A DNA stretch of 6,620 bases from Pseudomonadota bacterium (lineage in GTDB: Bacteria; Pseudomonadota; Gammaproteobacteria; Pseudomonadales; UBA5518): contig JAKJFB010000164.1 of the NCBI GenBank assembly GCA_022705125.1, positions 1 to 6,620 on the forward strand. Reading direction: 5' to 3'. The notes under the pieces are model-generated. The model saw only the letters and a program-made list of their open reading frames with translations, made no database searches and was not told where the DNA came from. The position numbers and the translations under genes are program-made. This document shows positions 1 to 6,620 of the stretch, one piece after another. The stretch's first letter is position 1. Every line of letters begins with the position of its first letter.

Positions 1-2226
<2,226 letters not shown>

Positions 2227-2227
2227 A

Positions 2228-4288
2228 GTGACGATGGCCGCGGGCACTGACGGGTTCTCCGCGGCGCTCGCGACGGCGTTGGCGGCCGTGCGCGCGCTGG
2301 AGCCCGGGGCCGATGCGCTGCCCGCGCTCGCCGCGCTCACCGCGGCGCTGCGTCCGCGCAACTCGCGCGAGGCGGCATCGCGCGTGCGCTGGCTGGAACT
2401 GCTGCGGCAACTGGAGCAGGAGCCGGCAACGCAGCTCGCCCTGCGCGAGGCGCTGCTGGGTTTCTTCGCCGCGCGGCGCCAGGTGGCATTCTTCAGCGAT
2501 TCGGGCCTGCTCCCCAACAGCGGGTTCTTCAGCGAGGCCGCGCGGATCCTCGGGCACAAGCTGCTGCCCGAGCCGCGCGACCGCGACGATCTTCGCTCCG
2601 GCATTCGCGAGCTGTTTCCCACGGCCCGCGATGCCGCGTGGATCGGCACGATCAGCGACGACGAGCGGCATGCCTTCTGGCGGCTGCTGCGCCTCAGCGG
2701 CTCGGAGAACGCCAACGCGCTGCAGCAGTTCATTGCCCAGCTGCTGGATGCGGCGCTGGTGCTGTCGCATCGCATCTGCGGCATGGGCCTCGAGCCGGAG
2801 CTCGCGCGGGTGTGTCCGCGGCTGCTCGAGCCCGGGGTGGAGTCGCCCTTCATCGCGCTCAACGCGGAGCTGCTCGGCGTGGTGGAGGGTATTCGCAACA
2901 CCCTGCTCGGCGACGAGGAGCGCGATCACGGCGGGCATGTCTTCGTGCTGCTGGAGCAGTGCGCCGAGGTGGTGCAGCGTGCGCGCCAGGCGTCGGCGAC
3001 CTTCGGCACCAGCATGCGCCTGTCGTTCATCCTCGTGCGGCTCACGCAGCACCTGGAGCGCCTGCGGCTGCTGCTGGAAGTGCTCACGCTGCAGACGCGT
3101 CCCGATGCGCCGGCGGCGCTGAGCGCGAGCCTGGGCGACTTTCTCCACGCCGCGCTCGCCGGCGAGCTGCGGCGCAACAGCCTGCGCCGTCACGCCGCGC
3201 AACTGCTCGGGCTGGTGGCGCTGCGCATCACGGGCAACGCCGCGCGCACGGGGGAACACTACATCGCGACCGATCGCGCCGACTGGATCGCGATGTGGCG
3301 CCGCGCCGGCGGTGCCGGCCTGCTGATCGCGCTGCTCGCGCTGCTGAAGATCCTGGCCAGCACCCTGCACCTGCCACCCGTCACGCAGGCGTGGCTGAAC
3401 GCCGGCATCTACGCGGGCGGCTTCGCGCTGATCCACATGCTGCACTTCGTGATCGCCACCAAGCAGCCGTCAATGACGGCCGCCACGCTCGCGGCGGCCA
3501 TCAGCCAGGCCGGCGGGCGGCTGCGCGACACCGAGCGCATCGTCGACCTGCTGGCCGCGACGCTGCGCAGCCAGCTCGCCGCGATCGCCGGCAACGTGCT
3601 GGTGGCGCTGCCCGTGGCGGTGCTGGTGGGATTGGCGCTGGCGCAACAGGCGCCGCCACCGGTGTCCGCGGCCAAGGCGACGCGCCTGCTCGCCGAGCTC
3701 GATGCGGTGCGCAGCCCGCTGGTGGCGCATGCCGCGATCGCGGGCATCTGGCTGTTCCTGACCGGGCTGGTCTCGGGCCACCTCGACAACCGCGCGGCCT
3801 CGATGCGGCTCGAGGAGCGCATCGCGCAGCTGCGCTGGCTCGGTGCCGTGCTCGGCGGGCGGCGCGCCGCGCGCATCGGCCGCTACCTGGCGGAGCATGC
3901 GGGTGGACTCGGCGGCAACCTGTTCTTCGGCCTGATGCTCGGCCTGACGCCCGCGGCGGGCCTGCTGCTAGGCCTGCCGCTCGACATCCGTCACGTGGCG
4001 TTCTCCTCGGCGAACCTCGGCTACGCGCTTGCCGCCACGGGCTTCGCACCGCCCGAGGGGACGCTCGCGCGCGCCTGCGCCGGCGTGGTGCTGATCGGCT
4101 TCATCAACCTGGCCGTGAGCTTCGGTCTCGCGCTGTGGGTAGCGATGCGCTCGCACGGTATCGGTTTCGCCCGCCTGGCGCCGGTGCTGCCGCGCCTCGC
4201 GGCGCGGCTGCGCAGCGACCCGCGCAGCTTCGTGGTGCCGCCCGTGGGTCCGGCGCCAGCCGGACAGTCGGGTCCCGTGGGTCAGGAT
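2228..4288 (+). CDS. Gcr/SpecificRecomb-family membrane protein, no stop codon at its expected end
   Basis: Member of the family databases call 'site-specific recombinase' (SpecificRecomb, after gonococcal Gcr). Recognised by remembered family blocks: GLEPELARVCPRLLEP near residue 187, TGNAARTGEHYIA near 335, IATKQPSMTAATLAAA near 409, and FFGLMLG...GLPLDIRHVAFSSANLGYAL near 565-600. The N-terminal ~350 residues look soluble and helical. About six hydrophobic segments follow near 358-378, 388-411, 451-474, 502-519, 562-585 and 617-640. I see no serine- or tyrosine-recombinase catalytic motif, so the recombinase name is doubtful; an inner-membrane role is inferred. Start is GTG 2228 or ATG 2234; neither has a clear Shine-Dalgarno, and coupling to the upstream TGA is likely. 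Family-like sequence ends near SFVVPP (about 4240). Beyond that the frame crosses repeats without a stop, so the end given here is only the last codon before mscS sequence begins. The formal frame ends at 6190. Family call good; true C-terminus unknown. Confidence 0.87.
4244..4265 (+). repeat. REP-like copy A with GTGG head
   Basis: Head GTGG (4244-4247), then stem GTCCGGC (4248-4254), loop GCCA (4255-4258) and stem GCCGGAC (4259-4265): seven perfect pairs. Outer bases CCCG (4241-4244) and CGGG (4269-4272) can add four pairs around a 3x3 internal loop. It lies at the point where the Gcr-type protein should end and is read in frame as GPAPAG. Confidence 0.8.
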
Positions 4289-4298
4289 TTATCCGGAC
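4277..4298 (+). repeat. REP-like copy B (degenerate), carries the mscS stop in its loop
   Basis: Head GTGG (4277-4280), stem GTCAGGA (4281-4287), loop TTTA (4288-4291), stem TCCGGAC (4292-4298). It matches copy D at 14 of 18 positions. Six of seven pairs are intact; one A-G mismatch is present. The innermost pair is A-T instead of C-G, a paired change that keeps the stem. The minus-strand TAA stop of the mscS-type gene is the complement of TTA at 4289-4291 in this loop. Confidence 0.65.
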
Positions 4299-5968
4299 AA
4301 TTGTCCGACTGGAGTCGGACCTGCGGGTTCGGGTGCGGCAGGCGCCAGGTGCCACTGCTCGCGCGGCACCAGCTTCGGCACCTCGGGATCGCCCTCGTAG
4401 GCCGGCGTCATGATCTGCACGCCGTACTCGTTGAAGACGTCGAGGATGTTCCTGTGCAGCGCGGAGTACAGCAGACCGATCTGCGTTGCGTCCCGCGTGG
4501 TCGCATTGATCTCGTAGACGACGCAGAAGTCGCCCAGCGACTTCTGCAGCACGAAGGGGCGCGGTTCGCGCTCGAGCCCGGCGGTTCGCTCGGCCGCCAG
4601 CAGCAGCATTGCCTCGACCTGGCGCCACGGCGTCTCGTAGCCGATGCCCACCGTGGTGTGCAGGATCAGGCCTTCGCGGCGTGCCAGCGCGCTGTAGTTG
4701 ATGACGGCCTTGCCGAGGATCTCCGAGTTCGGCAACACCACTTCTTCGTTCTTGAACGAGCGCAGGCGCGTCACCAACAGCGAGGTTTCGGTCACGAAGC
4801 CGGTGATCTCGCCCACGGCGATGCGATCGCCCAGGCGGAAGGCGCGACGGTAGGTCATGGTGTAACCGGCGATCACGTTCGAGATCACGGACGAGGAGCC
4901 CAGCGAAAATATCACCCCCAGGAACAGCGACACGCCCTTGAAGGCCTGCGACCCGGAGCCCGGTATGTACGGGTACGCGACCACCACGGCGAAGGCGATC
5001 ACGAGGATGCGCACGATCTTGTAGGTGGGCTGCGCCCACTCGGGGTCGAAGTTCTCGAAGCTGACCGCGCCGGTCTCGATGCCCTGGAACATGAGCTGCA
5101 GTGCCTTCAGCACGAAGCGCACGACCACCACGAGCACCACGATGAAGCCGAGATCGGGGAGCGAAGCCAGCACGGCGCCGCCCATCACCTGCAGCGGCTG
5201 CAGGAAAAGCTGAAACAGTTGATCGGCCAGCGGGGCCGTCCACGGATACAGGCCCAGCACCGTGCTGAGGTGCAGGTAGATCACCGCGAGCACCGACACC
5301 GTGATCGCGGCATTGACCAGGCCGCGCACCGCCAGCCACACCTGGCGCGACTGCACGAGCTGCACCGACTGGATCTTCAGATCCGCTCCGCCGGCGACGA
5401 AGCGCCCGCGCAACCGCGCCAGCGTCCAGCGTCGCAGCCGCAACAGCCCGTACAGCAGCGCGGCGGCCGCCAGTGTCGCCAGCACGACATAGCCGGTGTG
5501 CTGCAGCAGCACGCGCGGGGCGCGCGCGGCGCGGTAGGCCTGCACGGCCTTGCTCATGTCCGACATGACGAGTTCGGCCAGGCGGTCGCGGGGCACGCCC
5601 TCGGCGTCGATGTCGGCGAGCACCATGATGAGCTGCTCACCGGCGAGGATGCGCGACAGCTCGGCATCGGACTCGATGTGCAGGGCGTCGACGGGTATCG
5701 ACTCGTTGTCGGCGAGCCACTTGAGGCGCTCGGCGATCGCGCCGGCGCGCTTGGCAGGCGGCACCAGGGAGGTGCCGCGGACGCGAAACAACACCTCGCC
5801 ATCGAGCATCACCGGCGAGGTCTCGACCTCGAGGGCCAGATGGCGGTCCAGCGCCGCGTCCTCCCTGGTCGCGGCGCTCGCGCCGTGCAGGGGAAGCAGG
5901 GCGAGCAGGCAAAGTCCCGCGATCGCGGCAACGGCGCGCAACGTCGGCTGTCCATTGTTCTTGTTCAT
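4289..5968 (-). CDS. MscS-family mechanosensitive ion channel
   Basis: Inner-membrane tension-gated channel that would release solutes on hypo-osmotic shock. Length is 559 residues, longer than E. coli MscS (286) because of an added periplasmic region and extra helices. Signal peptide at residues 1-32 (hydrophobic AVAAIAGLCLLALLPL, cleavage after ASA), then a periplasmic domain to about 155. Membrane segments lie near 158-175, 211-233, 259-289 and 312-335. The pore-lining TM3-type helix is near 340-370 (FLGVIFSLGSSSVISNVIAG), followed by YRRAFRLGDRI, the beta domain (ITGFVTETSLLVTRLRSFKN, EEVVLPNSEIL) and the cytoplasmic vestibule domain. I chose ATG 5968 over the in-frame start at 6040 because it gives a proper signal peptide and the extra residues look untranslated; no strong Shine-Dalgarno is seen. 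The final residues (about GPTPVGQLSG) and TAA stop are made of repeat sequence. It has no TTA, CTA or TCA codon. It lies 103 nt downstream of glyA in the same direction and may have its own promoter. Confidence 0.94.
   Translation of the reverse strand: MNKNNGQPTLRAVAAIAGLCLLALLPLHGASAATREDAALDRHLALEVETSPVMLDGEVLFRVRGTSLVPPAKRAGAIAERLKWLADNESIPVDALHIESDAELSRILAGEQLIMVLADIDAEGVPRDRLAELVMSDMSKAVQAYRAARAPRVLLQHTGYVVLATLAAAALLYGLLRLRRWTLARLRGRFVAGGADLKIQSVQLVQSRQVWLAVRGLVNAAITVSVLAVIYLHLSTVLGLYPWTAPLADQLFQLFLQPLQVMGGAVLASLPDLGFIVVLVVVVRFVLKALQLMFQGIETGAVSFENFDPEWAQPTYKIVRILVIAFAVVVAYPYIPGSGSQAFKGVSLFLGVIFSLGSSSVISNVIAGYTMTYRRAFRLGDRIAVGEITGFVTETSLLVTRLRSFKNEEVVLPNSEILGKAVINYSALARREGLILHTTVGIGYETPWRQVEAMLLLAAERTAGLEREPRPFVLQKSLGDFCVVYEINATTRDATQIGLLYSALHRNILDVFNEYGVQIMTPAYEGDPEVPKLVPREQWHLAPAAPEPAGPTPVGQLSG
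4294..4307. repeat. Perfect 14-bp palindrome at the B/C junction
   Basis: CGGACAATTGTCCG is a perfect inverted repeat made from the right arm of copy B, AATT, and the left arm of copy C. It offers an alternative hairpin, with GGAC pairing GTCC, that excludes the B and C hairpins. Its codons coincide on both strands: plus reads S-G-Q-L-S and minus reads G-Q-L-S-G then stop. Confidence 0.7.
4303..4324 (-). repeat. REP-like copy C, inverted, with GCAG head
   Basis: Read on the minus strand: head GCAG (complement of 4321-4324), stem GTCCGAC, loop TCCA, stem GTCGGAC (4303-4320), seven perfect pairs. Compared with copy D, one stem G-C pair has become A-T on both arms, which preserves pairing. It shares CCGCAG upstream of the stem with copy D, making C and D closest relatives. 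It encodes part of the MscS C-terminus (GPTPV). Confidence 0.8.
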
Positions 5969-6002
5969 GGTGGAACGATCCGTTGTGAACGCGACCGGCA
6001 CC

Positions 6003-6011
6003 AGCCTAGCA
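6003..6011 (-). promoter_or_regulatory. Possible extended -10 element for the mscS-type gene
   Basis: The minus strand reads TGCTAGGCT, which fits a TG-n plus -10 hexamer with three of six TATAAT matches (first T, A, last T). It would start transcription near 5995, about 27 nt before ATG 5968. No convincing -35 box is present. This is a weak prediction in a 103-nt gap. Confidence 0.25.
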
Positions 6012-6042
6012 CGCCGCCCCACGCGCAGGAAAAGGGGCACCC

Positions 6043-6064
6043 GCAGGTCCGGCTTCAGCCGGAC
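6043..6064 (+). repeat. REP-like copy D at the 3' end of glyA
   Basis: Head GCAG (6043-6046), stem GTCCGGC (6047-6053), loop TTCA (6054-6057), stem GCCGGAC (6058-6064). Outer CCGCA (6041-6045) pairs with TGCGG (6067-6071), giving 12 pairs in all, and the outer stem abuts the glyA stop codon. On the glyA strand a TTTT run (complement of 6030-6033) lies about 8 nt past the outer stem, too far for a classical intrinsic terminator. It may still stabilise or end the glyA mRNA. It is the best-preserved copy and the reference for the others. Confidence 0.8.
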
Positions 6065-6071
6065 AGTGCGG

Positions 6072-6620
6072 TCAGGCGTAGACGGGGTAACGCTTGCAGA
6101 TGTCGAGGACCTTCGCGCGCACCTCGGCGATCACGCGCTCGCTGCTGCCGTCCTCGAGCGAGGCCAGCACGTCGCACATCCAGTGCGTGAGCTGCACCGT
6201 CTCGTCGATGCCGAAGCCGCGCGTGGTGATCGCGGGCGTGCCCACGCGCAGGCCGCTGGTCACCGCCGGCGGGCGCGGGTCGTTCGGCACGGCGTTCTTG
6301 TTCACCGTGATGTTCGCCTCGCCGAGCGCCGCATCGGCATCGGCGCCGGTGTAGGGCTTGCCGATCAGGTTCACCAGCATCAGGTGGTTGTCGGTGCCGC
6401 CCGAGACGATGTCGATGCCGCGCTCGATGAAGGTGCGCGCCATCGCGCGCGCGTTGTCCACGACCTGCTGCTGGTAGACCTTGAATTCCGGCTCCAGCGC
6501 TTCCTTGAAGCTCACGGCCTTGGCCGCGATCACGTGCATCAGCGGGCCGCCCTGGCCGCCGGGGAACACCGCGGAGTTCAGCTTCTTGGTGATCTCGTCG
6601 TTCTTGCGCGCGATGATCAG
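6072..6620 (-). CDS. glyA: Serine hydroxymethyltransferase, C-terminal part (5' end outside window)
   Basis: Cytoplasmic PLP enzyme that interconverts serine plus tetrahydrofolate with glycine plus 5,10-methylene-tetrahydrofolate, the main source of one-carbon units. The 182 visible residues align from memory along the whole C-terminal part of E. coli GlyA (417 aa): [61 protein letters not shown] and [16 protein letters not shown], ending [13 protein letters not shown] and TGA. The arginine in SGLRVGTPA corresponds to the substrate-carboxylate-binding Arg363 of E. coli. The PLP-binding lysine would lie just beyond the window edge. The frame is open to base 6620, so the GTG at 6569 is internal. 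No damage is visible. In many relatives nrdR follows glyA; here a repeat and an mscS-type gene follow instead. Confidence 0.98.

Follow-up and report, generated by a model that had tools for sequence, protein, structure and literature searches.

Genes and repeats at the locus

The window, meaning the whole stretch of DNA that was analysed, is a single contig of 6620 b with a GC content of 70%. It holds a Gcr-type gene and an mscS-type gene that converge on a pair of palindromic repeat units, with parts of two other genes at its edges. The features are listed here with the evidence for each.

1-2226, plus strand: TonB-dependent receptor gene, 3' end part (open reading frame list and Pfam)
2228-4243, plus strand: body of the Gcr-type gene (SpecificRecomb family, PF10136), to the SFVVPP end common to the family; the start is putative (Pfam, 639.3 bits, residues 30-671)
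4241-4330, no strand: two REP-like palindromic units, oppositely oriented, that occupy the gcr-mscS junction (pattern, repeats, RNA fold)
4244-4330, plus strand: stop-less extension of the gcr frame through the repeat, VGPAPAGQSGPVGQDLSGQLSDWSRTCGF (aligned with P0001 and P0002)
4331-6190, plus strand: run-on, in which the gcr frame continues antisense to mscS as far as the TGA at 6188-6190 (stops, codon counts, GC by codon position, homologue lengths)
4289-5968, minus strand: mscS-type channel gene, convergent with gcr, with its ATG at 5966-5968 and its stop TAA at 4289-4291 within the repeat pair (PF00924 and PF21082; database protein P0158)
6046-6066, no strand: third unit of the junction repeat, between the glyA stop at 6072-6074 and the mscS start; its plus-strand translation is GPASAGQCG (pattern, translation)
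6072 onward, minus strand: glyA, 3' end part, with its stop at 6072-6074 (open reading frame list and Pfam)

The gcr product belongs to the SpecificRecomb/Gcr-type family, since its match covers profile positions 3-639 of 639 and its score lies far above the curated cut-off of 24.6 bits. Similarity to the family ends at residue 671, and the PP codons common to the family are at 4238-4243, in agreement with the initial annotation, which had placed the end of the family-like sequence near 4240. No stop follows closely behind the domain, and the window's tail is 648 residues long.

An open frame across mscS

The gcr frame has no stop at the junction and continues through the neighboring gene. Frame +2 is open from the GTG at 2228 to the TGA at 6188-6190, a total of 1320 codons. 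Between 4000 and 6300 the plus-strand stops begin at 4411 in frame +1, are found at 6188 and 6227 in frame +2, and in frame +3 occur at 4092, 4116, 4140, and then only at 4398. No stop codon starts within 4141-4397 in any of the three frames, and therefore a single local indel gives no stop there. Both the lack of a stop in the gcr frame before 6188-6190 and the lack of any plus-strand stop from about 4200 to 4398 had been claimed previously, and both are confirmed. The sense codons that had been pointed out as one substitution away from a stop (CAG 4265, CAG 4283, TTA 4289, CAA 4298, TTG 4301, and TGG 4310) are in frame as described, and the TTA at 4289 is the mscS stop TAA read from the opposite strand. 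Thus mscS terminates at a TAA inside the repeat pair, while the gcr frame passes through the pair with no stop and enters the antisense strand of mscS.

The length of the run-on is explained by its codon register with mscS. Codons of the gcr frame line up exactly with those of mscS on the opposite strand, so the frame can be closed only by TTA, CTA, or TCA codons of mscS, and this high-GC gene has none of them in register. The counts are 0 of 584 codons for mscS (taken from the longer start at 6040), 0 of 742 for the TonB gene, 0 of 183 for glyA, and 2 of 672 for gcr, or 2 of 2181 in total. At that rate mscS would be expected to contain about 0.5 closing codons, and arithmetic from the codon counts gives a probability near 0.6 that the run stays open. 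The antisense frame in register with the TonB gene is also open, forming a 967-codon minus-strand reading frame at 1-2901. The GC content by codon position is 0.878/0.474/0.674 in the run-on, 0.689/0.430/0.898 in mscS, and 0.760/0.509/0.921 in gcr; the run-on is close to mscS reversed (0.898/0.430/0.689) and unlike gcr. Within the gcr frame only Gcr was matched by Pfam, with no family in the run-on, and in the 37 homologues of at least 726 aa the alignment covers no more than 51% of the frame, a share that corresponds to the Gcr part. The run-on at 4331-6190 is thought to be a codon-usage shadow of mscS and not a protein-coding extension. A run of 1.9 kb is ordinary, given the codon register and the high-GC codon usage of mscS; the unusual part is the missing stop at the junction.

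Gene ends in relatives

Homologues of Gcr end shortly after the conserved domain. The search found 457 homologues, of which 120 are listed, with scoring only of candidates that share most words; a further 37 were selected as long (726 aa or more), giving 157. In pairwise alignments the tail past window residue 672 is no longer than 23 residues in 120 of the 120 listed homologues (median 6.5). Among the 157 the median is 7, the tail has 30 residues or fewer in 148 and more than 60 in 8, and the maximum is 117, compared to 648 in the window. At the loci in matching genomes, 18 distinct genes from 18 genomes have a stop within 51 codons after the last aligned residue. These represent 20 loci, in which two genes occur twice each, and they cover 18 of the 23 matching genomes. 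Judged by these gene ends, the missing gcr stop is unusual for the family. A 1408-codon Gcr frame in another genome (G174; L010, G174:C2) was considered as a second run-on and rejected, as its length includes 512 open codons upstream of the match and its stop lies 51 codons past the last aligned residue.

The two closest of the listed homologues end differently. P0002, the second-closest (86%, 575 of 669 aligned residues), is from a contig of 71,262 b and ends with SFLAPPSGSLA, five residues past the PP and without the repeat peptide, so that its stop would align with 4259-4261. The initial annotation had held that a stop at about 4240-4310 in close relatives would speak against its reading. 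This 86% relative would have one, with its end aligning just before 4259. The stop position of P0002 therefore indicates that the family keeps its stop, and that the stop was lost in the window's lineage or in its assembly. P0001, the closest (96%, 636 of 668 aligned residues), ends with the nine residues GPASAGQCG, which are the plus-strand translation of the unit at 6046. At the same place the window has GPAPAGQSG, and therefore the same repeat, at the same gene end and in the same frame, is present in both. P0001 is on a contig of 2465 b, and its end may be the end of the contig at the repeat, not a stop. Short-read contigs tend to break at repeats.

The mscS gene also appears to have acquired its end from the repeat. 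Its protein ends with APAAPEPAGPTPVGQLSG, followed by the TAA. The final residues AGPTPVGQLSG are encoded by the repeat, and the TAA is also within the repeat pair. The two closest relatives, P0159 (87%) and P0197 (92% over 62% of the query), end with APAAPAPGA and APAAPESRT, 9 residues before the window's mscS, and the 9 extra residues and the TAA lie in the repeat pair; these relatives are on short contigs (2892 b and 1301 b), with the same doubt about contig ends as for P0001. In P0160-P0162, with 74-78% identity, the tails are about as long as that of the window but are unrelated in sequence and lack the repeat peptide, and therefore only the sequence of the mscS tail, not its length, argues for displacement. 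On this evidence the mscS 3' end seems to have been displaced as well as that of gcr, a point absent from the initial annotation.

The repeat units

The junction is filled by two similar palindromes that would form a strong hairpin. The unit pattern matches 4247-4267 on the plus strand and 4301-4321 on the minus strand (3 mismatches), and direct and inverted repeats (D10, D14, and I6) are found at the junction. The pattern was drawn from the window itself and has 4 matches there at 3 distinct sites, one palindrome being read both ways; none of 200 shuffles reached four matches, and the largest number was 2. The density is 3 sites in the 6.6 kb window. The predicted RNA fold of the pair has an energy of -55.4 kcal/mol on the plus strand (z -5.47) and -49.3 kcal/mol on the minus strand (z -5.58), and on either strand 0 of 200 shuffles were as good. 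No intrinsic terminators were found at 4000-4700, where the shuffle mean is 0.3, and a scan of the window at Rfam gathering thresholds gave 0 matches.

The units resemble REPs in some respects. Like REPs, they are palindromes in the range of about 20-40 bp, and two of them are paired in opposite orientation. However, reading the three units showed no GTAG or CGTC tag at an end of the palindrome: the unit ends are CCCGTGGGTCCG, CCCGCAGGTCCG, and CCCGCAGGTCCG at one side and GGACAGTCGG, GGACAATTG, and GGACAGTGCGG at the other. Because the tag is lacking and the copy number is seen only within the window, the units are termed REP-like rather than REPs. The exact unit was found in 0 of 369 class genomes, with no known near relative of the window's organism among them, and there was no match in plasmids or viral contigs. 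No transposase or insertion footprint was seen in the window.

The third unit stands alone right behind the glyA stop, and three gene ends or borders in the window touch the repeat family. The longest mscS reading frame starts with a GTG at 6040, while P0158 and its relative P0159 use the ATG at 5966-5968 instead. With the latter start the repeat at 6046-6066 is probably intergenic.

Proposed origin of the stop-less gene

The REP-like pair has probably displaced both 3' ends, with mscS gaining a stop from it and gcr not, and the resulting stop-less gcr mRNA would then need rescue. The loss of a stop through repeat insertion had been suggested in the initial annotation; it is now the best-supported reading, with the addition that the mscS end seems to have been displaced too. 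Comparison with P0001, P0002, P0159, and P0197, made on their protein sequences, suggests that the pair reached the gcr-mscS junction once the window's lineage had separated from that of P0002, and that it displaced both original 3' ends. The core of Gcr would carry a tail encoded by the repeat, and its mRNA would end, or be cut, at the long hairpin or beyond it. Ribosomes on this mRNA would reach the strong hairpin without a prior stop, so that rescue would be needed and less protein would be produced. A full 1320-residue product is unlikely. The missing gcr stop is a genuine feature of the sequence as given, and its most likely cause is an accident of this lineage at a repeat, of a kind already known.

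The most serious alternative is an error of assembly or consensus, in which the inverted pair was mis-assembled or collapsed in the metagenome contig and the true genome does have a stop in the gcr frame there. Such errors are known to occur at inverted repeat pairs in metagenome contigs, and two similar inverted palindromes are hard for short-read assembly. In addition, the window is one contig of 6620 b, and the 96% relative P0001 continues differently after the first unit. A simple error is nevertheless hard to reconcile with the absence of stop starts at 4141-4397 in all plus-strand frames, as a single local indel yields none. The database entry for mscS, P0158, whose end lies in the repeat, represents 6 contigs, the longest of 6620 b, and 27 member sequences. 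This count favors the mscS side of the repeat pair, although it leaves unstated whether the members share that end. Overall an assembly error is possible but rather unlikely.

The stop-less state could also be a regulatory device, similar to arfA. A mobile palindromic pair would have made gcr a rescue-controlled nonstop gene, with a hairpin that purposely yields stop-less mRNA by ending it or having it cut there. Tagging by tmRNA would keep Gcr low, the tagged protein being destroyed unless rescue is overloaded. The strong hairpin within an open frame, the arfA stem-loop as a precedent (in the available part of PMC10107115), and the ribosome stalling at REPs no more than 15 nt from a stop mentioned in the available part of PMC12306157 are all consistent with regulation. 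Against it, the 86% relative P0002 ends in the ordinary way, as do all 120 listed homologues, and the region 4000-4700 has no intrinsic terminator, so that such control appears improbable. More doubtful still is a real fusion of 1320 residues, in which Gcr would carry a functional extension of 648 residues encoded antisense to mscS. Its frame is open throughout, but this openness is expected from codon usage, the tail has no Pfam family, its GC by codon position mirrors mscS, and the long homologues (0 of 37) do not extend into it. A fusion is therefore considered extremely unlikely.

The missing gcr stop is of interest in several respects. If the sequence is right, one repeat pair displaced both convergent gene ends together but affected them differently, and the locus is a test case for how bacteria handle a chromosomal gene minus its stop. 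If the sequence is wrong, it is an example of how inverted repeats in metagenome contigs can fake a stop-less gene. There is also a warning for annotation, in that in high-GC genomes a lost stop can lead to a very long frame that mimics a large protein and is really the shadow of a neighbor. If the rescue-controlled reading were true, repeat insertion at convergent ends would be a recurring route to arfA-like control, and P0001, which has 96% identity and shares the repeat-encoded tail, could represent an independent second case.

Comparison with known systems

The locus shares features with REPs, with arfA, and with antisense reading frames in high-GC genes. According to the part of PMC3733652 that was available, REPs are mostly located between convergent or unidirectional reading frames and often no more than 20 bp from either 3' end, their GTAG termini often supply a TAG stop, and cases in which REPs supply stop codons or encode C-terminal residues have been reported. 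The available part of PMC12306157 cites another paper for ribosome stalling at REPs that lie 15 nt or less from a stop codon. Like REP dimers of the BIME or REPIN type, the window has short palindromes paired oppositely between convergent reading frames and overlapping the coding ends. It differs in having neither a GTAG nor a CGTC tag beside its units and in that one gene of the convergent pair lacks a stop. A full-text search of the literature for convergent genes with stop-codon loss gave no result.

The arfA gene of E. coli, as described in the available part of PMC10107115, has a stem-loop inside the reading frame that leads to a nonstop mRNA, and it is repressed by trans-translation. The window is similar in having a hairpin in an open frame before any stop, and ribosome rescue is likely to be needed in both. 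However, the arfA stem-loop is a terminator and an RNase III site with demonstrated function, while the window hairpin is not an intrinsic terminator by prediction (0 terminator-like sites at 4000-4700). In addition P0002, a close relative of the window's gcr, has no such arrangement. With antisense reading frames in high-GC genes, the window has in common a long open frame that is antisense to and in register with a codon-biased gene, but its antisense frame continues from a real gene upstream.

Distribution of the genes

Genes related to gcr and mscS were found in few genomes of the class sample. Gcr matches are present in 16 of 369 genomes, with a best identity of 45%, and in 7 of 21 genomes among the relatives of G001. 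Two orders were picked from glyA for a search for Gcr relatives, which were found in 0 of 19 and 0 of 2 genomes. The glyA gene itself matches 352 of the 369 genomes, with best-scoring matches at about 70% that single out no clade. A search of genome contigs gave 2 loci, and viral contigs gave no match to Gcr. The mscS gene has matches in 3 of 274 genomes at an E value of 1e-65, with 34-37% identity; at the overly strict cut-off of 1e-130 it has none (0 of 274). No close relative of the window turned up in any of these genome searches.

Two further observations concern Gcr. Its N-terminus in the window (2228-2300) is VTMAAGTDGFSAALATALAAVRAL, compared to the mutually similar MLPVKPGPEALDAALQGVRAL in P0001 and MFPVKPGQAALDAALQGVRAL in P0002, and this mismatch contrasts with the identity of 96% and 86% elsewhere. 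In G001 there are two short Gcr matches at G001:C5:45396-45807, about 6 kb away from the complete gene. One of them has 2 TGA codons inside, and together they look like a decayed second copy.
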